The notes under the pieces: generated by a model | What the model saw: the letters and a program-made list of their open reading frames with translations, nothing else | Database searches by the model: none | What the model was told of the DNA's origin: nothing | Made by a program: the position numbers and the translations under genes | From: Antrihabitans auranticaus | Lineage (GTDB): Bacteria; Actinomycetota; Actinomycetes; Mycobacteriales; Mycobacteriaceae | NCBI RefSeq assembly: GCF_016481275.1 | Contig: NZ_JAEMNW010000016.1 | Location: forward strand, 1-52,473 | Direction: 5' to 3' | DNA: 52,473 nt | In this document: piece after piece, positions 4,064-32,401 of the stretch | Layout of the letters: each line of letters opens with the position of its first letter | Numbering within the stretch: the first letter of the stretch is position 1

Positions 4064-6795
4064 AGATAGGTATCAACGGCGCGGACTACGACGCCGACCC
4101 CCGGCCTGGGCAGTGCCTGCGCACCTTCCTGCGCGAGCAGGCACATTACGAGGTCAAGAAGGGGTGCGACGCAGGTGACTGCGGCGCATGCTCTGTTCTG
4201 GTCGACGGCGAACCGGTGCATTCGTGCGTCTTTCCGGCCTATCGCGCCGAAAACCGTTCGGTGACAACCGTCTCCGGCCTGGGCACGCCGGACGATCTCC
4301 ATCCGTTGCAGAAGCAGTTCGTCGACGCAGGTGGTTTCCAATGCGGGTTCTGCACCGCGGGCATGATCGTCACGACGTCGACGCTCACTCCCGACCAGCT
4401 CGCGGACCTGCCCCAGACCCTCAAGGGCAACCTGTGCCGATGTACCGGCTACCGGGCGATTCGCGACGCCCTCGCCGGGACAGTGAACGTCGAAACACCT
4501 ACGGAAGGGCAGGCTTTCGGCCGATCGTTCCCTGCGCCCGCGGGTCCGCGGATCACGACCGGCACAGAGCCCTACACCCTGGACCTCGCAATCGAGGGCA
4601 CTACTCACGTCTCGATCGTGCAGAGCCCACACGCGCACGCGCGCATCACGAACATCGACACGTCAACTGCGGAGGCCATGCCGGGTGTGCTTGCGGTCTT
4701 CACCGGCAAGGACAGTCCGGACCTCCTGTATTCCACTGGGCGACACCAGTTTCGGACCGACGATCCTGACGACACAGCGCTGTTCGACACGGTCGTGCGG
4801 TTTCGTGGTCAGCGCGTGGCGGCGGTCGTCGCAGAGACCCTCACGCTCGCCGAGGCCGCGTGCCGCGCGATCGTCGTCGAGTACGAGGTACTGCCGGCGG
4901 TGTTCGATCCCGAACTGGCAACGGCACCGGACGCACCGGCGATCCACGGTGACAAAGACGCGGATACCAGCCGGATCGCGGACCCCGCGACCAATCTCGT
5001 CGCCGATCTACACGGCGGAATCGGCGATATCGCGGCCGGCGCCGCCGACGCGCAGGCCAACGGCGGAGCCGTCGTCACAGGCAGATTCCAGACGCAGCGG
5101 GTACAGCATGCACACCTCGAGACGCATTGCGCGCTCGGCTGGCTTGACGAGTCCGGACGGCTGGTCATCCGCACCAGTTCCCAGGTGCCGTTCCTGGTAC
5201 GCGACGAGTTGTGCCACGTATTCGGGCTCGACGCCGACCGTGTTCGAGTGTTCACAGCGAGGGTCGGCGGCGGCTTCGGCGGCAAGCAGGAGATGCTGAC
5301 CGAGGACGTCGTCGCGCTGGCCGTGCTGCGTACGGGCAGGCCGGTGCAGTACGAGTTCACGCGGGCCGATCAGTTCACCATCGCCCCGTGCCGCCACCCG
5401 ATGCGCGTCGACATCACGGTCGCGGCCCGTGCCGACGGGACGCTGACCGCGCTGGGCGTCGACGTACTCAGCGATACCGGCGCATACGGCAACCACGGCC
5501 CGGGCGTCATGTTCCACAGCTGCGGGGAATCGGTTGCGGTGTATCGGTGCCCGAACAAGCGCGTCGATGCTCGGGCTGTCTATACGAACAACATTCCGTC
5601 CGGAGCTTTTCGTGGCTACGGCCTCGGCCAGGTGTCGTTTGCAGTCGAGTCGGCGATGGACGACCTGGCAGCTCGACTCGGCATGGACCCGTTCGAGTTC
5701 AGGCGGCGCAACGTCGTGGTTCCGGGCGACCAGCTCATCGATGCGCACGTCGCCGAGCCGGACCTGCAGTTCGGCAGCTATGGCCTCGATCAGTGCCTCG
5801 ACGCCGCCCAGCAGGCGCTCGATCGCGGCAACGGCGTCGCCGCACCCGATGGCGATCAGTGGGTGACCGGAGAAGGGATGGCGGTCGCGATGATCGCAAC
5901 GATCCCGCCGCGCGGGCACCACTCGGAGACTGCCGTTCAGCTCGACGCGAACGGTTGCTACACGGTCGGCGTCGGCACGTCCGAGTTCGGCAACGGCACG
6001 ACCACGGTGCACAGGCAGATTGCGGCGACGACGCTCGACACCACGATGGCCAACGTCACCACTCGCCAATCCGATACCGACACAGCGAAATACGACACGG
6101 GCGCCTTCGGGTCCGCGGGCACGACCGTCGCGGGTTTGGCGGTCAGCAAGGCGGCCACGCTGCTGCGTACATACATCGAGGCGACCGCAGCGTCCATCAC
6201 GGGGTTGCCCGCCGAACACTGCGTGCTCGGCTCGGACGGCGTGTTGTGCGGCGATCGGCTGGTGCGCTTCGCCGACATCGTGGCGGCGAACGGTAGCCCG
6301 CTGAGCGCACAAGCGGGCCACGACGGGCTCCCCCGCTCGGTTGCGTTCAACGTGCAGGCCTTCCGCGTAGCCGTCGACAATCGGACCGGCGAGGTCCGAA
6401 TCCTGCAGTCCGTTCATGCGGCCGACGCCGGGCGGGTCGTCAACCCCGAACAGTGCCGCGGGCAGGTGGAAGGCGGTGTCGCACAGGGGATCGGCTCGGC
6501 GCTCTACGAGGAGATGATCGACGACGGCGCCGGGACCATCACCACCCAGGCGTTGCGCAACTATCACCTCCCGCAGGTCGCCGATGTCCCGGTCACCGAG
6601 GTCTACTTCGCCGACACGACGGACCGGCTCGGACCTTTCGGTGCCAAGTCGATGAGCGAGTCGCCGTACAACCCGGTCGCGCCGGCGCTCGCCAACGCCA
6701 TCGCACGCGCGACAGGTGCCAGGGTGCGCCGCCTTCCGATGAACCCGATCCGGGTGTGGCGTGCGATCGACGACATGCACAGGGACGTGCCATGA
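4060..6795 (+). CDS. Fused [2Fe-2S] and molybdopterin-binding xanthine dehydrogenase subunit
   Basis: 911 residues. Residues 1-145 are the small iron-sulfur subunit: a plant-type cluster with Cys36, 41, 44 and 56, and a helical-domain cluster with Cys95, 98, 126 and 128. From about residue 160 it is the large molybdopterin subunit: GGGFGGK at 403-409, GAFRGYG at 515-521 with the substrate Arg518, and a C-terminal MSES with the putative catalytic base Glu867. The enzyme hydroxylates hypoxanthine/xanthine to urate. Context (uricase, guanine deaminase, XdhC) supports purine substrates. The start ATG overlaps the FAD subunit stop by 4 bp. The final motif differs from the usual GVGE, so substrate range is uncertain. 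Confidence 0.9.
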   Translation: MKIGINGADYDADPRPGQCLRTFLREQAHYEVKKGCDAGDCGACSVLVDGEPVHSCVFPAYRAENRSVTTVSGLGTPDDLHPLQKQFVDAGGFQCGFCTAGMIVTTSTLTPDQLADLPQTLKGNLCRCTGYRAIRDALAGTVNVETPTEGQAFGRSFPAPAGPRITTGTEPYTLDLAIEGTTHVSIVQSPHAHARITNIDTSTAEAMPGVLAVFTGKDSPDLLYSTGRHQFRTDDPDDTALFDTVVRFRGQRVAAVVAETLTLAEAACRAIVVEYEVLPAVFDPELATAPDAPAIHGDKDADTSRIADPATNLVADLHGGIGDIAAGAADAQANGGAVVTGRFQTQRVQHAHLETHCALGWLDESGRLVIRTSSQVPFLVRDELCHVFGLDADRVRVFTARVGGGFGGKQEMLTEDVVALAVLRTGRPVQYEFTRADQFTIAPCRHPMRVDITVAARADGTLTALGVDVLSDTGAYGNHGPGVMFHSCGESVAVYRCPNKRVDARAVYTNNIPSGAFRGYGLGQVSFAVESAMDDLAARLGMDPFEFRRRNVVVPGDQLIDAHVAEPDLQFGSYGLDQCLDAAQQALDRGNGVAAPDGDQWVTGEGMAVAMIATIPPRGHHSETAVQLDANGCYTVGVGTSEFGNGTTTVHRQIAATTLDTTMANVTTRQSDTDTAKYDTGAFGSAGTTVAGLAVSKAATLLRTYIEATAASITGLPAEHCVLGSDGVLCGDRLVRFADIVAANGSPLSAQAGHDGLPRSVAFNVQAFRVAVDNRTGEVRILQSVHAADAGRVVNPEQCRGQVEGGVAQGIGSALYEEMIDDGAGTITTQALRNYHLPQVADVPVTEVYFADTTDRLGPFGAKSMSESPYNPVAPALANAIARATGARVRRLPMNPIRVWRAIDDMHRDVP

Positions 6796-15960: not shown

Positions 15961-17199
15961 ATGAAGCAGTCACGCTCCGTGCTGGCTGTCATCGCGGCAA
16001 TTGCGGCCGCAGTCGTTCTCAGCGTGACTCCGACCGCGCATGCACTTCCGGACACCGCCCCCGATCCCGGCGTGCCGCTCGCGGGTTTCTACACGCCGCC
16101 CAATCCCCTGCCGCCCGGTCAGCCTGGCGACGTCATCAAGACCGAACCGATGACCGTTTTGTTGGACCCGGTCCTCCGCGTGAAGCTCACGGATCGCGCC
16201 GAGCGAATCATGTATCGCAGCACGGATCTACACGGGAATCCGATCGCGATCACCGGCACTCTGGTCCGGCCGTTCGCGGAGTGGCCGGGCCCAGGTCCAC
16301 AGCCGCTCGTCAGCCTCGCAGCCGGCACCCAGGGTGCCGGAGACCAGTGCGCGCCGAGCCACGAGATGGAAGCCGGCACCTTCTACGAATGGTTTGCGGT
16401 GACGCAACTCGTCGCGCGCGGCTGGGCGGTGGTCGTGACCGACTATCGCGGCCTCGGCACGCCCGGCGCACACACCATGCTCAACCGCGTCGATTCCGCC
16501 CACGCCGTGCTGGACGGGGCGCGCGCCGGCCGCCAGATCATCGGCCCTGGACCGGTCGGCATCGCGGGCTACTCCCAGGGCGGCCAGGCTGCCGCGGCGG
16601 CCGCAGAACTGCAACCGACCTATGCACCCGACCTCGCACTCGTCGGCGCCTATGCCGGCGCAGTTCCCGCGGACCTGTCCAAGAACGGCGGCAGGACCGA
16701 GATCGCCACGGCCGGCGCCGAGGTGGGCTGGCTGATCAACGGCCTGATCGAGGCCTATCCCGACCGCGCCGACGCCATTCGGGACCTGTTCAACCCGGCC
16801 GGAATCACCATGCTGGAGACGACGCGAAGGCAGTGCGGCTTCGACACCCTCATCCAGTACGGCTCGACCGAGACAACCGAATTCACCCGCGACGGCCGGC
16901 CGATCGCCGCGTACCTCGAACAGGAACCCATCGCGTCGCTGCTCGCCGACCAACGCGTCGGAAACTTGACCCCCACCGCACCGATACTGCTCGTGCACGG
17001 CTCGAACGACGACTCCGTGCCGACCTCACAAACCCGCCAACTGGCGGCCGACTGGACTGCAGGCGGTGCGAACGTCCAATTCACCGAGATCGACGGTCCG
17101 GCGCTGATTCCCGGCACGGGCGCCTCACATTTTCTTGCGAGCCTCCCCTCGCACGCTGACGGTGCGGAGTTCTTGGCGCAGCAGTTCGCGAGCTACTGA
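15961..17199 (+). CDS. Secreted lipase, LIP family
   Basis: 412 residues. A clear signal peptide ends around TPTAHA (about residue 29). The alpha/beta hydrolase fold has the oxyanion region SLAAGTQGAG, the nucleophile motif GYSQGGQ (Ser near residue 203), the acid in HGSNDDSVP, and a C-terminal His in GASHF. The LIP family (secretory lipase, PF03583) hydrolyses triacylglycerols and other esters outside the cell and is frequent in nocardioform actinomycetes. The 3' end overlaps the convergent reductase gene by 7 bp. A second member lies at 23573-24697. Confidence 0.88.
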   Translation: MKQSRSVLAVIAAIAAAVVLSVTPTAHALPDTAPDPGVPLAGFYTPPNPLPPGQPGDVIKTEPMTVLLDPVLRVKLTDRAERIMYRSTDLHGNPIAITGTLVRPFAEWPGPGPQPLVSLAAGTQGAGDQCAPSHEMEAGTFYEWFAVTQLVARGWAVVVTDYRGLGTPGAHTMLNRVDSAHAVLDGARAGRQIIGPGPVGIAGYSQGGQAAAAAAELQPTYAPDLALVGAYAGAVPADLSKNGGRTEIATAGAEVGWLINGLIEAYPDRADAIRDLFNPAGITMLETTRRQCGFDTLIQYGSTETTEFTRDGRPIAAYLEQEPIASLLADQRVGNLTPTAPILLVHGSNDDSVPTSQTRQLAADWTAGGANVQFTEIDGPALIPGTGASHFLASLPSHADGAEFLAQQFASY

Positions 17200-18233
17200 T
17201 CGAAGACAGCTCGAACGGTGTCGGTCACTGGCAGCGATTGACACGCAAGGCGCACGCCTTTGTCGAGGTCGTACTTGTCGAGCGTGTCGTTGGCGAGCAT
17301 CCGGACCTCGCCGGAGACGAGCGTGAATGCACAACCGCCACAGGAACCTTCGCGGCAGACGTACGGCGCGTCGATCCCCTCCCGCAAAAGCACGTCGAGC
17401 AAAGGGGTCTGGCGTGGCCACGACACAACATGCTCGTCGCCGTCCACTTCGGCCGTCACGGTCGCCACATCCGATCCGACCGGCTCGACCGAGGCAATCG
17501 GTGTGTCGAACGCATCCGACGACAGCGATACGAACACCTCTTTGTGGATCCGGTCGCGACTCACACCAGCGGCAGACAACGCCGACTCGGCGACGGCCAT
17601 GAACGGCGCCGGCCCACACAGATAGGCGCGAGAGTTCTTGGGCACGGTCAATTCTGCGCGCAAACTCTCCGGGGTCGGTCGACCCTTGTCGCTCTCCAGC
17701 CAGTGCTGAACAGAGAGCCGTTTCGCAAACTTGCGTTGCAGTTCGGCCAATTCGGCGGCGAAGATGACCGAGTCACTGTCACGGTTCGCGTAGACCAGTT
17801 GGACACGGTTGCGATGCTCGGTGAGCGCAGTCTTGAGAATCGACATGACGGGAGTGATCCCGCTTCCGGCGGCGATCAGCACGAACGGTGCATCCCACTG
17901 CTTCGGAACGAAAACTCCTGCCGGACGCAAGGATTCGAGCTTCAATCCCGGTACCGCGTTGTCGCACAACCAATTCGACGCGAGCCCGTCGACCGTTCGC
18001 TTCACCGTGATCTGCGGATACCGGTCCAGCGCGGGCGCGCTCGAGAGCGAGTAGCAGCGCGATACCGCACCTTCCCCGCCGGGTATCCGCAAGGTCAGAA
18101 ATTGACCCGGCTGATAGCGGAAGCCTGCCTCACCCCTGGGGAGGTCGAACTCCAGGGAAACGGCGTCATGGGTCTCCCTGATCACCCGCCTCACTTCGAG
18201 CGTGTGCCCGGTCGCTGTCGCAGCTGTGGTCAT
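17193..18233 (-). CDS. Ferredoxin-type NAD(P)H oxidoreductase (KshB/Hmp-like: FAD, NAD and plant-type [2Fe-2S] domains)
   Basis: 346 residues from the ATG at 18233 with a GGAAGGG ribosome site. FAD domain: RCYSLSS at 59-65. NAD domain: GSGITP at 123-128. C-terminal [2Fe-2S] ferredoxin: Cys293, 298, 301 and 331. Such single-chain reductases drive oxygenases, for example the 3-ketosteroid 9-alpha-hydroxylase. No Rieske oxygenase is nearby. The divergent operon encodes a ferritin-like diiron protein, a plausible electron acceptor. The reductase module of the fusion at 30056-32401 is clearly homologous (both share YANRD-x-DSV). Confidence 0.9.
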   Translation of the reverse strand: MTTAATATGHTLEVRRVIRETHDAVSLEFDLPRGEAGFRYQPGQFLTLRIPGGEGAVSRCYSLSSAPALDRYPQITVKRTVDGLASNWLCDNAVPGLKLESLRPAGVFVPKQWDAPFVLIAAGSGITPVMSILKTALTEHRNRVQLVYANRDSDSVIFAAELAELQRKFAKRLSVQHWLESDKGRPTPESLRAELTVPKNSRAYLCGPAPFMAVAESALSAAGVSRDRIHKEVFVSLSSDAFDTPIASVEPVGSDVATVTAEVDGDEHVVSWPRQTPLLDVLLREGIDAPYVCREGSCGGCAFTLVSGEVRMLANDTLDKYDLDKGVRLACQSLPVTDTVRAVFDQ

Positions 18234-18275
18234 TTCACGGCCCTTCCGTTCGTGTCCACATAAGTGTGAACGACG

Positions 18276-18301
18276 AATGTGCCATTGACAACTGGCACAT
18301 T
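18276..18301. promoter_or_regulatory. Perfect 9-bp inverted repeat between divergent reductase and hydrolase genes
   Basis: AATGTGCCA (18276-18284), spacer TTGACAAC, then TGGCACATT (18293-18301). The spacer contains a TTGACA -35-like hexamer reading right. Reading left, TTGTCA is followed 17 bp later by CACACT, a weak -10. A second imperfect dyad (CACA-TAAG-TGTG at 18257-18268) lies alongside. The placement suits an operator that controls both directions. The regulator is unknown; the MerR-type protein at 22775 is one candidate. Confidence 0.65.
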
Positions 18302-18321
18302 GAACATGCAAGCTTTGCGGC

Positions 18322-19335
18322 ATGACGAAAATCGGGTCAACGGAGACCTCTCGTTCGGCACTTGTCCATCCACCTGCCCTGCCGGAGTCAGCGTCGCTGC
18401 TCTCGCAGATCGCGGCGGACGCCACCTCGCTCGCAATGCGACCGATTCACTCGGCGTTGCCGATGAACCGCGCCGGAGTCTGGGCCGGCAGGCAGCTCGT
18501 CAAGTCGTTCATGACGACGCTGGGACCGCCCCTACCAGGCACAACAGTCGTCCCGGTCCGGCTTGGCCAGGTCGTGGGCGAATGGGTGCGGGCACCCGGA
18601 GTGCAGCAGGGCACACGTGCCGTCTACTACGTCCACGGCAGCGGATACGTCATCTGCTCGGCCCGAACCCATCGCGGGCTGGCCTCGCGGCTGTCGAAGT
18701 CGACAGGTTTGCCGGTGTTCGTCGTCGATTACCGCCTCGCGCCAGAACACCGCTTCCCCACCGCCGCCGACGACGTCGAAGCCGGTTACCGCTGGTTGCT
18801 CGACTGCGGTTTCGCCGGCAACGACATCGTGATCGCCGGTGATTCGGCCGGATGTCACCTCACGCTCGACCTCCTGCTCGAGAACGCCCGCACAGGGGTC
18901 CAGCAGCCCGCGGGTGTCGCGATGTTCTCACCTCTTCTCGATCTGACCTTCGAGCTGGCGGCGCAGCAAGAACGCGTTCGCAAGGATCCGATGATCACCT
19001 CGCGCGCCGCGCGCGACCTGGTCAGCCAATACACGGTCGGCCAATCCGACGACAACCCACGCCTACGGCTCGACATTCCGCACGGCACCATCCTCCCGCC
19101 GATCCTGGTCCAGGCAGGAGGCGCGGAAATGCTCAGCGCCGATGCGCGCGAACTACAGCGCATCGTGCGCGCCGCCGGCGGTCACTGCGAACTGGAAATC
19201 TGGCCTGGCCAGATGCACGTCTTCCAGGCACTGCCGCTGCTGATCCCCGAAGCGACGTCTGCGCTGCGGCGCGTCGCGACATTCCTCGCCGAATCGTTGC
19301 ATCGCTCGGCCACGGCAGTGCAGGAAGTGAGCTGA
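18322..19335 (+). CDS. Alpha/beta hydrolase, hormone-sensitive-lipase family (LipR-like)
   Basis: 337 residues. The oxyanion motif is HGSG (105-108, in place of the usual HGGG), the segment YRLAPEHRFPTA is typical of the family, and the nucleophile is Ser175 in GDSAG. A C-terminal His is in QMHVFQ. At the catalytic acid position, where relatives have Asp, the sequence reads GGAEML, so a neighbouring Glu or Asp would have to serve. It is first in an operon with an SDR, a diiron protein and a monooxygenase, matching the lipR-sadH-mymA gene content in mycobacteria. A role as esterase, for example on esters made by the Baeyer-Villiger enzyme, is inferred. Confidence 0.85.
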   Translation: MTKIGSTETSRSALVHPPALPESASLLSQIAADATSLAMRPIHSALPMNRAGVWAGRQLVKSFMTTLGPPLPGTTVVPVRLGQVVGEWVRAPGVQQGTRAVYYVHGSGYVICSARTHRGLASRLSKSTGLPVFVVDYRLAPEHRFPTAADDVEAGYRWLLDCGFAGNDIVIAGDSAGCHLTLDLLLENARTGVQQPAGVAMFSPLLDLTFELAAQQERVRKDPMITSRAARDLVSQYTVGQSDDNPRLRLDIPHGTILPPILVQAGGAEMLSADARELQRIVRAAGGHCELEIWPGQMHVFQALPLLIPEATSALRRVATFLAESLHRSATAVQEVS

Positions 19336-19337
19336 TC

Positions 19338-20234
19338 ATGTTCGGACTCCACAATCTCTTCGGCGGCGGCGATCGCCTGTCGCACAACGCAAAAGCCGTC
19401 GTCACCGGTGCAGGTAGCGGAATCGGCAGGGCATTCGCACTGGAACTCGCTGCGCGCGGGGGTGAGGTCATCTGCGCCGACATCGATCTCGAGCGTGCGG
19501 AAGAGACGGTGCGGCTGATCGAGCGCACGCACAACGGCACCGCGCACGCATACTTCTGCGATGTGTCGCGCCGTGACGACATGGAAAACCTTGCGCTGCA
19601 TACCGAAATGACCTTCGCGGGCCCGCCGACCCTGGTGATCAACAACGCGGGCGTCGGTATCGGCGGAACACCGGTCGGCGAGGTCGGCCTCGACAACTGG
19701 GAATGGGCGCTCGGCATCAACCTGTGGGGCGTTGTGTACGGCTGCGAACTCTTCACGCCGCAGATGCGTGCCGCGGGTCGCGGCGGCGTCATCAACGTTG
19801 CCTCCGCGGCGGGTTTCGCAGCAGCGCCGGGGATGGCGGCGTACAACACCTCGAAGGCCGCCGTGCTGTCACTGTCGGAAACGATGGCCGCCGAACTGCA
19901 AGGCAGCGGCGTCAACGTCACGGTCCTGTGCCCGACCTTCGTGAAGACCAACGTCGCACGCGACGGGCGAATCACGGCAGAGTCGTCCAAGTTGGCCGAC
20001 ACCCTGATGCGGTGGACCGGCTTCTCCCCCGACAGCGTCGCGAAGACAACGCTCGACGCTCATGACAAGGGCCGCCTCTACGTGCTGCCCCAATTGGATG
20101 CCAACGTCGTATGGCACCTCAAACGCCATCTTCCCGCGCAATACACCTATGGGCTCGGTTTGCTGAATCGCTTACTGCCCCAATCAGAACCAGCACACGA
20201 ACCTATTTCGTCTTCCGACAGAACAGGAGTCTGA
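19338..20234 (+). CDS. Short-chain dehydrogenase/reductase (SadH-like)
   Basis: 298 residues. The NAD(P) motif TGAGSGIG (about 21-28), the NNAG motif, and the active-site YxxxK as YNTSK are all present. The C-terminal extension ending LNRLLPQSE is typical of SadH-type SDRs. The start ATG is 2 bp after the stop of the hydrolase and the diiron gene follows one base after its stop, so the operon is tightly packed. It would interconvert an alcohol and ketone, consistent with a Baeyer-Villiger route from alcohol to ketone to ester. Confidence 0.9.
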   Translation: MFGLHNLFGGGDRLSHNAKAVVTGAGSGIGRAFALELAARGGEVICADIDLERAEETVRLIERTHNGTAHAYFCDVSRRDDMENLALHTEMTFAGPPTLVINNAGVGIGGTPVGEVGLDNWEWALGINLWGVVYGCELFTPQMRAAGRGGVINVASAAGFAAAPGMAAYNTSKAAVLSLSETMAAELQGSGVNVTVLCPTFVKTNVARDGRITAESSKLADTLMRWTGFSPDSVAKTTLDAHDKGRLYVLPQLDANVVWHLKRHLPAQYTYGLGLLNRLLPQSEPAHEPISSSDRTGV

Positions 20235-20235
20235 C

Positions 20236-21159
20236 ATGAACACGACTTTCGATTTCGACGACATGCTTGCCAAGATCAAGGACCGCCAGTGGGCCCTTGC
20301 CGACATCGACTGGGACGCACCGGGTGCGGAGACCCTGAGCCCTGAGCTGCACGCGAAACTCAAGCCCTTCATGGCCGACCTGATGTGGATCGAGAACGTC
20401 GGCGCGCGCGGGTTCGCCGCAATGGCGCAAAAAGCACCGACCGAAACCCTCAAGGACATCTACCGGCACTTCCACGCCGAAGAGCAGCGGCACGCGAACG
20501 CCGAACTCGCCCTGATGAAGCGCTGGGGCATGCTCGACGGCGACAAGATTCCCGAGCCCAACATCAACGTCAAGCTCGTCATCGACTTCCTCGACCGATA
20601 CTCCGACGGAATGTCGCTGTCGTTCCTCGGCACCGTCATCCCGATGCTCGAGGTCGCCCTCGACGGTGCGCTGATCAAGTTCATCACTGACGAGGTACCG
20701 GACCCGATCGCCCAGGAAGTGTTCAAGAAGATCAACTCCGACGAATCCCGGCATCTCGCCACGGACTACGCGGTCATGGATCTGCTCGGGCACGCCAAGG
20801 CGCGCAAGCTGTTCATCGATCTCGTCGGTGGCTGGCTGAACCCGTCACTGATGATCGGAATCCTCAGCTACGTACCGCTTCTCAACAAGATGCGCGACAA
20901 CATCGTCGAGATGGGTGTCGACGAGGAGCGCCTGTACGGCGCCATGAGGCGGTTCCGCGCAGTGGGCGAACGCAGCCCGGCGGCAAACCGGGTGCCCATG
21001 TACCAGATCGTGAAGTTCCACGGCAATATGGTCATCAACCGCAATCACCCGTATCACATCCTGGCGGATGCACTGGTCAAGCTGACCGCGCACTTCCCAG
21101 CCCGGTTGCTCGCGCAGCCGACGTGGTCCAAGGGCCTGACCTACGAGCCGGCCGCATGA
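20236..21159 (+). CDS. Ferritin-like diiron-carboxylate protein
   Basis: 307 residues, mostly helical. A full diiron ligand set can be read: Glu53 (WIENVG), Glu83 and His86 (EEQRH), Glu139 (MLEVAL), Glu170 and His173 (DESRH). That is the E, ExxH, E, ExxH pattern of carboxylate-bridged diiron oxygenases and desaturases. Database names for such proteins may be vague (metal-dependent hydrolase or reductase); the ligand pattern argues for an oxygen-activating enzyme. Its N-terminus shares the motif DIDWxAP with the AurF-like fusion at 30056. The divergent FAD/[2Fe-2S] reductase is the likely electron donor. The 3' end overlaps the monooxygenase start by 4 bp. Confidence 0.75.
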   Translation: MNTTFDFDDMLAKIKDRQWALADIDWDAPGAETLSPELHAKLKPFMADLMWIENVGARGFAAMAQKAPTETLKDIYRHFHAEEQRHANAELALMKRWGMLDGDKIPEPNINVKLVIDFLDRYSDGMSLSFLGTVIPMLEVALDGALIKFITDEVPDPIAQEVFKKINSDESRHLATDYAVMDLLGHAKARKLFIDLVGGWLNPSLMIGILSYVPLLNKMRDNIVEMGVDEERLYGAMRRFRAVGERSPAANRVPMYQIVKFHGNMVINRNHPYHILADALVKLTAHFPARLLAQPTWSKGLTYEPAA

Positions 21160-22673
21160 GTACCGCGACGCCACTCGACGTGGCCATCATCGGCGGCGGC
21201 TTTGCCGGCATCGGCACTGCAATTCGGTTGAAACAGAAGGGAATCTCCAACTTCGCGATCTTCGAGCGCGGTGCGCGGGTCGGCGGAACCTGGCGGGACA
21301 ACACCTATCCCGGCGCGGCATGCGACATCCCGTCACGGCTGTATTCCTACAGTTTCGCGCCGAATCCGAACTGGTCGCACACGTATTCCGGGAGCGAGGA
21401 GATTCTCGGCTACATCGATCGGATGGTCGACGATTTCGCTCTCCTCCCCCATATCCAGTTTGGGCACAACATCACCGGGGTCGAGTTCGACGAGGCCACG
21501 GGCCTCTGGACCATCGCCGCCGCAGGGCGCAAGCGCAATGTCAAGGCACGTTCGGTCGTGGTGGCCTCCGGCCCGCTGGCCAACGCGAGCCTGCCTGCGA
21601 TCCGCGGCATCGAGACGTACGAGGGTCACAAGATCCACAGTGCACGCTGGGATCACGACTACGACTTCACCGGTAAGAAGGTCGCGGTCGTCGGCACCGG
21701 CGCGAGTGGCGTGCAGATCATCCCCGAACTCGTCGAGCGGGCGGCGTCGGTCAAGGTGTTTCAGCGCACGCCCGGCTGGGTCCTGCCGCGGTTCAACCGC
21801 AAGACCAATGGCCTGATGAAGCAGGTCTATCGGGACATCCCCGCCACCGAGTCGCTCGCGCGGCAAGCCTGGTTCTGGGGACACGAATCGGTCGCCCTCG
21901 GCGTCGTGTGGAACACCCCGCTCACCCGAGTGGTCGAGATGGTCGGTAAAGCGCACCTTCGTGCCCAGGTCAAGGACCCGTGGTTGCGCAGGCAGCTCAC
22001 TCCGGACTTCCGCGCCGGCTGCAAACGCCTGCTCATGACAAGCGACTACTACCCCGCCCTGCAGCGCGACAATTGCACGCTCGTCACGTGGCCGATCGCG
22101 CGGATCTCGGAGAAGGGCATCCGCACGGTCGAGGGCATCGAGCACCAATTCGACTGCATCGTGTTCGCCACGGGTTTCGACGTCTCCAAGACGGGAACGC
22201 CGATTCCGATCGTCGGCAGGCACGGTCGCGTTTTGTCGGACGAATGGAGTGGCGGCGCCTACGCGTACAAGAGCGTGGCGGTTGCGGGTTACCCGAATCT
22301 GTTCTTCACCTTCGGACCGAACTCGGGTCCGGGGCACAATTCGGCGCTCGTCTACATGGAGGCCCAGATCGACTACCTCACCGACGGCATCCACACGCTG
22401 CTCGAGCAGAATCTGCAGACCATCGACGTGCGCCGCGATCTGCAGGACCGCTACAACGAGCGACTCCAGAAGAAGCTCGCTGCCACGACCTGGAACTCGG
22501 GTTGCAAGAGCTGGTACCTGACCGAGGACGGTTTCAACCCGTCGATGTTCCCCGGTTTCGGCACACAGTTCGCGAATCAGTTGGCGACCTTCGAACTCGG
22601 CGACTACATCGCAACGTCTGCCGAGAACGCGCCGACCAGGCATATTCCACGCGCTGCCCCTGCGCTCGGCTAA
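21156..22673 (+). CDS. Flavin monooxygenase, Baeyer-Villiger type (MymA-like)
   Basis: 505 residues. An N-terminal FAD motif (IIGGGFAGIG, 11-20), a second nucleotide motif (VVGTGASGVQ), and between them the Baeyer-Villiger fingerprint in the form YEGHKIHSARWDHD. It would insert oxygen next to a ketone, or oxidise N/S atoms, using NADPH and O2. The start ATG at 21156 overlaps the diiron gene stop. Gene order (LipR-like, SadH-like, diiron, MymA-like) points to a shared pathway for a lipid or ketone. The physiological substrate is not visible. Confidence 0.88.
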   Translation: MSTATPLDVAIIGGGFAGIGTAIRLKQKGISNFAIFERGARVGGTWRDNTYPGAACDIPSRLYSYSFAPNPNWSHTYSGSEEILGYIDRMVDDFALLPHIQFGHNITGVEFDEATGLWTIAAAGRKRNVKARSVVVASGPLANASLPAIRGIETYEGHKIHSARWDHDYDFTGKKVAVVGTGASGVQIIPELVERAASVKVFQRTPGWVLPRFNRKTNGLMKQVYRDIPATESLARQAWFWGHESVALGVVWNTPLTRVVEMVGKAHLRAQVKDPWLRRQLTPDFRAGCKRLLMTSDYYPALQRDNCTLVTWPIARISEKGIRTVEGIEHQFDCIVFATGFDVSKTGTPIPIVGRHGRVLSDEWSGGAYAYKSVAVAGYPNLFFTFGPNSGPGHNSALVYMEAQIDYLTDGIHTLLEQNLQTIDVRRDLQDRYNERLQKKLAATTWNSGCKSWYLTEDGFNPSMFPGFGTQFANQLATFELGDYIATSAENAPTRHIPRAAPALG

Positions 22674-29988: not shown

Positions 29989-30014
29989 CGCCCAATGGCG
30001 CGGTGCTAGGCTCC

Positions 30015-30030
30015 TGTGACCTAGATCACC
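30015..30030. promoter_or_regulatory. CRP/GlxR-like binding site before the diiron oxygenase fusion
   Basis: TGTGACCTAGATCACC matches the actinobacterial CRP/GlxR consensus TGTGANNTANNTCACA at all but the last specified base, including the central TA. It ends 25 bp before the ATG of the fusion gene, just ahead of its GGAGG ribosome site. This close to the start it would more likely repress, or mark a promoter further upstream. A cAMP link is inferred; a class III cyclase gene is present at 11251-12060. Confidence 0.6.
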
Positions 30031-30055
30031 CACCGAAGTGTGTCGGAGGTTAGCC

Positions 30056-32401
30056 ATGACCGGCGTATTGGACGACCGCTTCGAGGCCGCCGAGAAAATT
30101 TCCAACCGGCTCCTGAAGTCGTCGATAAAGCAATCCTTCGATCCGTGGACCGATATCGATTGGGAAGCACCGCTCGTCGCGGACGCGCCGTTTCTGCCGC
30201 TGAACCGGTCGACCCTGTATGGGACCGACCTGTGGGAGGAGATGACTCCGGAACAGCGAATCGAGTTGACGCGCCACGAAAGTGCGAGCATTGCCAGCTC
30301 CGGCATCTGGTTCGAAATGATCTTGATGCAACTCGTTCTGCGCGGCGCCTACGACCTCGACCCTCGCACCGCGCATATGCATTGGGCGCTGACGGAGATC
30401 GCGGACGAGTGTCACCACTCGATCATGTTCGGCAAAGCCCTTGCGCGGACCGGGATGCCGGCGCATCGGCACTCCAAGGTGTTCAACGAACTGGGCCGCG
30501 TCTTCAAGACCCTCACCTCGGGACCGAGCTCCTACGCCGGAATCCTGGTCGCCGAGGAAATTCTCGACGAAGCACAACGCGAAATGATGATCGACGACAC
30601 GGTGGAACCCCTGGTCCGGCGCGTCAGTCAGATCCATGTGACCGAAGAGGCCCGCCATATCCGCTTTGCCCGCGAACAGATCGCGGACATGATGAAGCAG
30701 GGCATGGATCCTGCGGAACTGCTTGCCCAGCAGACACTGTGCGCTCTGGTCGGCTTCATGATCGTCGAGTCGCTCATCAGTCCCGGCGTCTATGCGGCGG
30801 TCGGACTCGACACGAAGAAGGCACTCAAGGCAGCCGCGAACAATCCGCATGTCCACCAGACCCGCGCCGACTGGGGCAAGAAGGTCGTCGAGTTCCTCGG
30901 CGAGAACAACCTCATCGGCGGTCCGGCCGCGGGCCTGTGGCGCGCGAGCTATCTGATGACGGACGCCGACGTGGATCGCGGCGTGATCGGCAAGGGCGTC
31001 GACACCGGTACCGCGGCTGCGCTGAAGGCGGCCGCGGCGGTCCTTACGAACATCCCGGGCCTGCACAAGCTCAACCGCGGCACGGTGGCCGGAATCGGAC
31101 GCGGACCCGGCAAGACACCGAAGAAGCCGAAAAAGCCGAAGGCACCGAGTTCCTCGAGTGCCGACTCGAAAAGTGCCCTCGGACTGAGCATCAGCGACCT
31201 GACCGACCCGATCCGCACCATCACCGACTCGTCTCCCGTGCAGGCCTTGCGCCGCGCGACCGGGTTTCTCCCCTGGGGATTGATCGGTGACCCGCTGGCA
31301 CCGTCGGAGCGGCCGCGAACGAAACCTGAGTCGTCGAAGAGCGTGCACCGCCTCACCGTCGCTGACATTCAGAAGCTCACCAGCGATAGTGTTGCCGTAA
31401 CATTCAGCGTCCCAGACGATTTGGCGGAGACCTACCGCTACGTGCAGGGCCAGCACATCACCATCGAAGCCCTCGTCGGTGGCGAGCGCCTGCGCCGAAG
31501 CTATTCCGTCTGCTCCCCCGTGTCCGCGCAGACCCTGCGAGTCGGCGTGAAAAAGGTGCCTGGCGGAGCGTTCTCCACCTATGTCGTGGACACCCTGACG
31601 GCCGGCGACGAAGTCGACGTCGTACCGCCGGCCGGTCGGTTCTACACCGAACTCGATGCGATCAACACCCACCATTACGTCGGCGTCGCGGGCGGCAGCG
31701 GCATCACGCCGATCCTGTCGATCCTCACCAGCGTGCTCGAAGAGGAGCCCGGCAGCCGATTCACCCTGTTGTACGCGAACCGCGACCGCGATTCGGTGAT
31801 GTTCTTCGACGAGCTCGCCGATCTCGAGCGGCTGTATTCGGATCGACTGTCGATCCTGCACGTCCTCGAGGAGGGCGGACACAGCGGCGGCGCCTTCGCC
31901 AACGGGCGAATCGACGCCGACCGGCTCGCTGCGGTCGCGTCATCGAGCGATGTGGCGCACTGGTTCCTCTGCGGGCCCGCACCCATGACCGAGGCAGCGC
32001 GAGATACATTGCGCGCGAACGACGTAGCGAGTTCGACGATCCATCTCGAGCTGTTCAACACGATCGGCGCTTCGGCACCCGGCAAGACCGCCACCAAGGC
32101 CGCACCCGCCGATGCCGCGACTGGCGCGCAGCTGCGCTTCAGCTTCGAGGGTGCGGACGAGACTATTCGGCTCGAGGACGGCGAACTGCTCCTCGACGCG
32201 GCGCTTCGGACGGGTCAAGACATTCCGTGGTCGTGCCGCGAAGCTGTGTGCGGCATGTGCCGGGCGAAGGTCTGCTCCGGCCAGGCGACGCCGATGCTGG
32301 AGAACCACACGTTGACCGATGACGAAGTCGAAGCGGGCTTCATCCTGACCTGCCAGACACACGCGGCCACCGCCGAACTCCAACTGGACTACGACGCCTG
32401 A
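30056..32401 (+). CDS. Self-sufficient AurF-like diiron oxygenase fused to FAD/NAD reductase and [2Fe-2S] ferredoxin
   Basis: 781 residues from ATG 30056 with a GGAGG site. Residues 1-340 are an AurF/PF11583-like diiron oxygenase with candidate ligands Glu75, Glu118 and His121 (DECHH), Glu168 (AEEIL), and His194, Glu198 and His201 (HVTEEARH), the full seven-ligand AurF pattern. A Lys/Pro/Ser-rich linker covers about 350-372. Residues 428-668 form an FNR-type reductase (RSYS at 481-484, GGSGITP at 546-552). The C-terminal ferredoxin (690-781) has Cys727, 732, 735 and 766. Oxygenase and electron chain in one polypeptide suggest a self-contained NAD(P)H-driven monooxygenase. AurF oxidises aryl amines; the substrate here is unknown. 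Confidence 0.85.
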   Translation: MTGVLDDRFEAAEKISNRLLKSSIKQSFDPWTDIDWEAPLVADAPFLPLNRSTLYGTDLWEEMTPEQRIELTRHESASIASSGIWFEMILMQLVLRGAYDLDPRTAHMHWALTEIADECHHSIMFGKALARTGMPAHRHSKVFNELGRVFKTLTSGPSSYAGILVAEEILDEAQREMMIDDTVEPLVRRVSQIHVTEEARHIRFAREQIADMMKQGMDPAELLAQQTLCALVGFMIVESLISPGVYAAVGLDTKKALKAAANNPHVHQTRADWGKKVVEFLGENNLIGGPAAGLWRASYLMTDADVDRGVIGKGVDTGTAAALKAAAAVLTNIPGLHKLNRGTVAGIGRGPGKTPKKPKKPKAPSSSSADSKSALGLSISDLTDPIRTITDSSPVQALRRATGFLPWGLIGDPLAPSERPRTKPESSKSVHRLTVADIQKLTSDSVAVTFSVPDDLAETYRYVQGQHITIEALVGGERLRRSYSVCSPVSAQTLRVGVKKVPGGAFSTYVVDTLTAGDEVDVVPPAGRFYTELDAINTHHYVGVAGGSGITPILSILTSVLEEEPGSRFTLLYANRDRDSVMFFDELADLERLYSDRLSILHVLEEGGHSGGAFANGRIDADRLAAVASSSDVAHWFLCGPAPMTEAARDTLRANDVASSTIHLELFNTIGASAPGKTATKAAPADAATGAQLRFSFEGADETIRLEDGELLLDAALRTGQDIPWSCREAVCGMCRAKVCSGQATPMLENHTLTDDEVEAGFILTCQTHAATAELQLDYDA

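Follow-up and report, generated by a model that had tools for sequence, protein, structure and literature searches.

The window, i.e. the whole stretch of 52,473 nucleotides (nt) that was analysed and the entire contig C8 of the source genome (Antrihabitans auranticaus, NZ_JAEMNW010000016.1), carries on its plus strand a gene at 30056-32401 in which an AurF-type diiron oxygenase domain is fused to an FNR-type flavin reductase and a [2Fe-2S] ferredoxin. The chain thus has all three parts that a self-sufficient oxygenase requires: an oxygenase domain, a flavin reductase and an iron-sulfur domain. Because of this fusion, the sequence and the modelled fold indicate that the product is likely a self-sufficient, single-chain non-haem diiron oxygenase driven by reduced nicotinamide adenine dinucleotide (phosphate), NAD(P)H, and O2, resembling a DnfA-DnfB pair in one chain. 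The domain architecture, its conservation, the selection on it, the fold class of the N-terminal domain, the clade structure of both halves and a shared upstream palindrome are matters of observation. The one-chain fusion is a new arrangement of known parts: among the papers listed by our searches, no title or abstract opening mentions a fused PF11583 enzyme, most subscription papers being out of reach. No self-sufficient AurF-type enzyme was familiar to the author of the first-pass annotation. The novelty is limited, since the split layout is known for PF11583 (DnfA-DnfB) and one-chain layouts are known for cytochrome P450s and AlkB (PMC8918992).

The gene is a single open frame (frame 1) of 781 codons followed by a stop codon, and a chance frame is ruled out by its length, by its domain scores and by its presence in six genomes. 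A start at ATG 30056 is favoured over the possible alternative GTG 30038 because of a ribosome-binding-site-like GGAGG (30045-30049, plus strand, 6 nt 5' of the ATG) and because homologs share the MTG start. Pfam domains follow the order AurF (residues 11-283), FAD_binding_6 (433-530), NAD_binding_1 (544-649) and Fer2 (698-770), and the PF11583 match places the N-terminal domain well inside the family (314.4 bits against a curated cut-off of 29.6, E 8e-94). Along the plus strand we delimit the AurF-type diiron oxygenase domain (residues 1-300, 30056-30955; PF11583, AlphaFold2 model, Foldseek and motif test), a C-terminal extension which by alignment is also present in two unfused paralogs (301-356, 30956-31123), a Lys/Pro/Ser-rich linker (about 357-392, 31124-31231), a conserved segment comprising PVQALRRATGFLPWGLIGDPLAP and its surroundings (393-428, 31232-31339; invariant columns), a PaaE-like reductase domain binding flavin adenine dinucleotide (FAD) and NAD(P)H (429-690, 31340-32125; PF00970, PF00175 and TIGR02160), and the [2Fe-2S] ferredoxin domain with the stop codon (691-781, 32126-32401; PF00111 and four Cys). 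The uninterrupted frame, the linker and the FNR-type module with a four-Cys ferredoxin had all been recognised in the first-pass annotation, and they stand. An assembly or gene-model artefact, for which no support was found, is refuted by the same frame in six assemblies with varying linker lengths, and its probability is negligible.

By its model, the N-terminal domain is of the AurF/CmlI fold class. The AlphaFold2 model, built with 56 sequences, has a mean predicted local distance difference test score (pLDDT) of 89.3 and a predicted template-modelling score (pTM) of 0.89. In Foldseek, AurF (2jcd) comes first (E 6.6e-6, template-modelling (TM) score 0.58 by query, 17% identity) and ranks 1-5 are all AurF/CmlI (2jcd, 5hyh and 3chu chains; E 6.6e-6 to 2.6e-4, TM 0.51-0.58 by query), with desaturases and R2-like oxidases entering the list from rank 6.

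The diiron ligands are probably E87, E118, H121, E167, H194, E198 and H201, a candidate set of 3 His/4 Glu. The motif EX28-37DEXXH, described for AzoC with the ligands E102, E137, H140, E198, H225, E229 and H232 (PMC6783550, PMC8840469), is present as E87-X29-DECHH, and the second motif as E167-X29-EEARH. The candidates are located on four modelled helices: E87 on 65-98, E118 and H121 on 106-132, E167 on 157-179, and H194, E198 and H201 on 185-214. Five of these residues (Glu118, His121, His194, Glu198 and His201) were already in the seven-ligand set of the first-pass annotation, while its Glu75 and Glu168 give way to Glu87 and, less firmly, Glu167. E75, E87, E118, H121, E167, E168, H194, E198 and H201 are invariant in 56 close rows. 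Before DECHH only Glu87 fits the motif (X29), whereas Glu75 sits X41 away. In a wider alignment of 18 rows, Glu75 is missing from four (L001, L002, L003 and L153) and E87 is invariant; Glu75 was therefore rejected as a ligand. Glu168 is doubted on spacing: Glu167 lies 27 residues from His194 and Glu168 lies 26, and 27 is the spacing of both E198-H225 in AzoC (PMC6783550, PMC8840469) and E182-H209 in DnfA, whose predicted ligands are E88, E123, H126, E182, H209, E213 and H216 (PMC9478400). This correction is the weaker one, because E168 (X28) satisfies the second motif as well as E167 does and the two differ by one residue in their distance to His194.

The linker, mostly modelled at pLDDT <50, differs in length among the six fusions, whereas the segment 393-428 that follows is conserved and, in a translated pattern scan of the examined loci, present only in fusions. 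For the C-terminal half (431-780) the nearest NCBIfam model is PaaE (TIGR02160) at 360.9 bits, which is under the equivalog cut-off of 420.8, so that the half is PaaE-like only. The cluster cysteines 727, 732, 735 and 766 (CX4CX2C...C) are invariant in 6/6 fusions, and RRxYS, GGSGITP and CGP are likewise kept in all six, with the third position of RRxYS variable. In the mechanism that we envisage, NAD(P)H would reduce the FAD of the PaaE-type module, which would pass electrons one at a time to the [2Fe-2S] cluster at the C-terminus. Owing to the flexible linker, the [2Fe-2S] domain could then dock on the N-terminal four-helix domain of AurF type, where it would reduce Fe(III)2 to Fe(II)2; with O2, the reduced site would form a peroxo-diiron species, the oxidant of a small substrate.

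Several observations weigh against a self-sufficient oxygenase. The AurF-type domain is distant from AurF (17% identity, TM about 0.58), and its sequence match to AurF in the PDB is not significant (E about 1). The full-chain model (pLDDT 70.2, pTM 0.48) represents the reductase half poorly; its 50 best Foldseek matches are FNR-type proteins with large root-mean-square deviation, and we rejected it as a guide to domain geometry. The neighbouring genes point to no pathway. Two unfused paralogs exist without a reductase, and purified DnfA with FAD and NADH does not need DnfB (PMC9478400), so that such a reductase is not necessarily the limiting component. The last two points also favour a chain that is self-sufficient in form only, in which other ferredoxins or peroxide serve the diiron site in the cell and the fusion raises local concentration. 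The paralogs, 68% and 67% identical over the shared part, have no PaaE-type gene in their examined flanks of 17-19 kb. However, the reductase motifs are kept and the reductase half is under purifying selection across six genomes, and we consider this alternative, which is compatible with the self-sufficient oxygenase, to be improbable.

The full-length fusion occurs in 6/61 genomes, the same six among 401 genomes of the family, and in 1/246 genomes of a phylum sample, namely the window's own; the three sets overlap. The other five carriers are Antrihabitans stalactiti, A. stalagmiti, Smaragdicoccus niigatensis, a Nocardiaceae metagenome-assembled genome (bin.485) and Skermania sp. ID1734, and genome scans found no fusion in another Antrihabitans genome (G003). 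Among the best 80 of 525 relatives from a scan across the named collection, five are full-length, and in the other 75 the match is confined to residues 1-385. No independent fusion is present among the matches listed from the 246 phylum genomes, a survey that could miss distant fusions, and no matching plasmid record (0/1278) covers 80% of the query.

In a tree of the AurF domain (126 rows, with a long-branch warning for other parts of the tree), a single clade (99/96) unites the six fused domains, and its sister is the pair of unfused paralogs of the Smaragdicoccus group (100/99). The six fused reductase modules also form one clade (99/98) in a reductase tree of 32 rows. The ratio of nonsynonymous to synonymous substitution rates (dN/dS) indicates that both halves are under purifying selection: it ranges from 0.016 to 0.34 in 59/60 pair-by-segment values and is lowest for the AurF segment in 13/15 pairs, the values being rough, with one linker value saturated and synonymous changes near saturation in 14/15 pairs. 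A single origin of the fusion is probable, given one clade for each half and purifying selection on both; a PaaE-like reductase would have been appended to an AurF-type gene. In the unfused paralogs the chain stops two residues past the PK of GPGRQPK, where the linker starts in the fusions; therefore, the extension 301-356 would be older than the fusion, unless the paralogs have lost the remainder.

Among stand-alone proteins, the closest relative found for the fused reductase (49% identity) is encoded at locus L161 of the bin.485 genome, together with a short-chain dehydrogenase (named by eye), a ferritin-like diiron protein, a complete flavin monooxygenase and part of a second one. Because this nearest reductase clusters with a diiron protein gene, the fused reductase may have been recruited from a diiron system. 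The products of the window genes 20236-21159 and 21123-22673 share 59% and 65% identity with the diiron protein and the flavin monooxygenase of L161, respectively. This resemblance would agree with a tethered reductase that mainly serves partners in trans, for instance the two proteins encoded at 20236-22673. However, the window pair has another reductase gene nearby (17193-18425), and the AurF segment keeps its ligand candidates along with the lowest dN/dS in most pairs, which makes such service in trans very improbable. At L161 itself, a short frame (5533-5868) that looks like the beginning of a flavin monooxygenase separates the gene for the stand-alone reductase from the complete flavin monooxygenase gene.

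An origin of the reductase from desaturase fusions was rejected, as 12 desaturase-fused and 6 AurF-fused modules fall into separate clades of the reductase tree, from which the L161 reductase was left out. The FNR/Fer2 module follows a desaturase-type domain in 12/32 rows of this tree; the desaturase labels come from sequence motifs, with Pfam FA_desaturase checked on L040 alone. The rows with such single-frame genes are L039-L045, L047, L050, L057, L064 and L145; a 2022 review, citing a 2001 source, states that ferredoxin-fused desaturases had not been found (PMC8918992). In Skermania sp. ID1734 (L064, L145 and L146), the AurF fusion gene has two genes for desaturase-reductase fusions within about 25 kb.

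Upstream of the fusion gene, a CRP-like palindrome, TGTGA-N6-TCAC (30015-30029, plus strand), forms a putative operator. The element GTGAnnTAnnTCA[C/T] starts 38-58 nt 5' of the start codon in 8/8 clade genes, i.e. the six fusions and the two unfused paralogs. Within 160 nt before the match start, it is present in 15 of 141 AurF-type match rows, which include copies; all 15 are copies of these eight genes, and none was found upstream of rows outside the eight-gene clade. Of the 1331 genes called in the named loci and the window, four have the palindrome within 100 nt, all of them fusion genes, and the count missed two more fusion genes for which longer frames were called. The source genome holds 4 sites of GTGANNTANNTCAC against 2 for a reversed control. 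Since 35/100 shuffles of the window contain at least one TGTGAN6TCAC, the case for the palindrome rests on conservation among related genes, representing at most six lineages. Just 5' of it lies TAGGCT (30007-30012, plus strand), a putative -10-like hexamer; TANNNT occurs within about 25 nt 5' of the palindrome in 7/8 clade genes (not L060), compared with 82/1331 control stretches of 27 nt. The clade palindromes depart at their outer bases from the E. coli CRP consensus TGTGA-N6-TCACA (PMC4117774). Their shape fits putative control by a CRP-family regulator, and the position after the hexamer would suit repression. At gathering scores, Rfam gives no match in the window.

An alternative is an NAD(P)H-driven oxidase or detoxifying enzyme whose diiron site would remove O2, peroxide or nitrogen species, e.g. 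hydroxylamine; a CRP-like site is compatible with a stress or nutrient response too. DnfA, with the same ligand pattern, membership of PF11583 (PMC11160463) and a clustered FNR/2Fe-2S gene, is reportedly an O2-dependent hydroxylamine oxidase making N2 (PMC9478400), and a natural fusion of a flavodiiron protein, rubredoxin and reductase is a water-forming oxidase (PMC9364112). The nearest solved folds, in a comparison that did not include DnfA, are nevertheless the arylamine oxygenases AurF and CmlI, and we regard an oxidase as unlikely, at about the same level as self-sufficiency in form only. For the self-sufficient oxygenase, oxidation at nitrogen (of an amine, amide, hydroxylamine or hydrazone) is the leading guess and comes close to an even chance, a rating that gains slightly from nitrogen being the target of the characterised PF11583-type enzymes DnfA and Dob3 as well. 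A second and rather unlikely guess is that a hydrophobic substrate is hydroxylated.

The neighbouring genes were dropped as a source of function, since they do not recur across fusion loci. The first-pass annotation had read a hint of amide or acyl chemistry in an amidase and a PlsC-like acyltransferase; neither gene occurs beside the other five fusions within the flanks examined (about 10 kb per side; 7 kb in total at L062), and the hint falls. With crude gene calling, the window shares with these flanks only the fusion gene, besides partial matches to unrelated genes. Elsewhere in the window, 20236-21159 encodes a second ferritin-like diiron protein with a PF11583 match under the cut-off and the motifs E53-X28-EEQRH and E139-X29-DESRH. 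It is followed by the flavin monooxygenase gene 21123-22673, with the PaaE-like reductase gene 17193-18425 (minus strand) and lipase-type genes around (15961-22673).

Stand-alone actinobacterial relatives of the AurF-type domain are 44-53% identical over the domain. In 40/75 stand-alone loci (L065-L139), an FprB-like gene follows the AurF-type match on the same strand after 4-300 nt; at L070, L071, L081 and L136, the AurF-type match is a second copy rather than the best one. The name FprB is presumed from the domain layout, no NCBIfam model having given it. Two of the products, the ones checked, have 4Fe-4S and pyridine-nucleotide oxidoreductase domains, not FNR/[2Fe-2S]. The gene order suggests a dedicated electron supply. 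A PaaE-type gene is found in the flank of 1/75 stand-alone loci, about 6 kb off and on the opposite strand, some flanks being short. At the more distant loci L140-L142, AurF-type and PaaE-type genes lie near each other, with a flavin monooxygenase and a short-chain dehydrogenase gene between them at L142 (Pfam) and probably at L141.

The source genome itself (G000) has ten PF11583 matches over the cut-off, including two adjacent ones followed by a flavin monooxygenase gene on contig C12 (L007). It also has an AurF-type/FprB-like gene pair (L159). We presume that Rv0885 of M. tuberculosis is a PF11583 member. It is adjacent in number to fprB (Rv0886) and has a CRP site upstream (PMC4117774). 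The L159 pair was considered as the counterpart of Rv0885-Rv0886; serC was not recognised beside it, and we do not claim orthology. FprB of M. tuberculosis is a ferredoxin-reductase fusion whose electron transfer is still to be characterised (PMC6469627), and the AurF-type gene directly upstream of FprB-like genes suggests a physiological partner for proteins of this type.

As a wider and somewhat doubtful proposal, actinobacterial PF11583 enzymes would be NAD(P)H-driven with dedicated reductases, in several layouts in addition to the DnfA-DnfB pair (fused PaaE-type, FprB-like pair, or a cluster with flavin monooxygenase, short-chain dehydrogenase and PaaE-type genes), and the fusion would be the first naturally self-sufficient member, CRP-controlled and with a substrate and chemistry new to the family. 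A natural chain with its own reductase would offer a ready one-protein catalyst for AurF-family oxidation chemistry, and the fused layout could make this enzyme easier to study. Together with the AurF-type gene pairs, it makes electron delivery to these enzymes in the cell directly testable.

Among known systems, DnfA-DnfB is like the fusion in pairing a PF11583 enzyme with an FNR/2Fe-2S protein and in the seven-ligand pattern with its E-to-H spacing of 27. In dnfABC of Alcaligenes, the gene for DnfB, a protein with FNR-like FAD/NAD(P) and 2Fe-2S domains, is clustered with that for DnfA; DnfAB in E. coli yields hydroxylamine, and DnfB is hypothesised to relay electrons from NADH (PMC9478400, PMC11160463). 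Unlike the fusion, this system consists of two proteins and a third gene, dnfC, and we compare it from published descriptions only.

AurF, CmlI and AzoC share with the window domain the four-helix diiron fold class, EX28-37DEXXH and the 3 His/4 Glu candidate set, whereas they have no fused reductase and the window domain is about 17% identical to AurF. In assays, AzoC and its relative Dob3 were driven by phenazine methosulfate (PMS) and NAD(P)H (NADPH for Dob3, PMC13061610), and DnfA by FAD and NADH (PMC9478400); the native redox partner of Dob3 is probably encoded elsewhere in its genome (PMC13061610). The first-pass statement that AurF needs external electron donors or peroxide holds with a restriction for its relatives, as the FNR/2Fe-2S protein DnfB is encoded with DnfA. 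The AurF-type/FprB-like pairs differ from the fusion in being two genes and in their 4Fe-4S and pyridine-nucleotide oxidoreductase partner.

PaaE, the reductase of phenylacetyl-CoA epoxidase, is like the C-terminal half in being its best NCBIfam model and serves a ferritin-like diiron oxygenase; unlike that half, which scores below the PaaE cut-off, it is a separate subunit of a multicomponent enzyme. The first-pass annotation had taken P450-BM3 as the model for a self-sufficient diiron oxygenase; self-sufficiency remains likely from sequence and fold, but CYP116B, CYP153 and AlkB fusions are closer in layout. CYP116B uses flavin mononucleotide (FMN). Like the window protein, the self-sufficient P450s of the CYP116B/CYP153 type, for which CYP153 fusions are described (PMC8918992), combine oxygenase, flavin reductase and C-terminal [2Fe-2S] domain, and 6kbh and 6laa rank 3 and 4 in Foldseek with the full model; they contain haem rather than a diiron site. 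The AlkB fusion (ferr_ferrR_AlkB) likewise unites a diiron oxygenase, a flavin reductase and a ferredoxin in a single chain, which has been shown to be active (PMC8918992), whereas AlkB, an integral membrane protein, is preceded in that chain by the redox domains.

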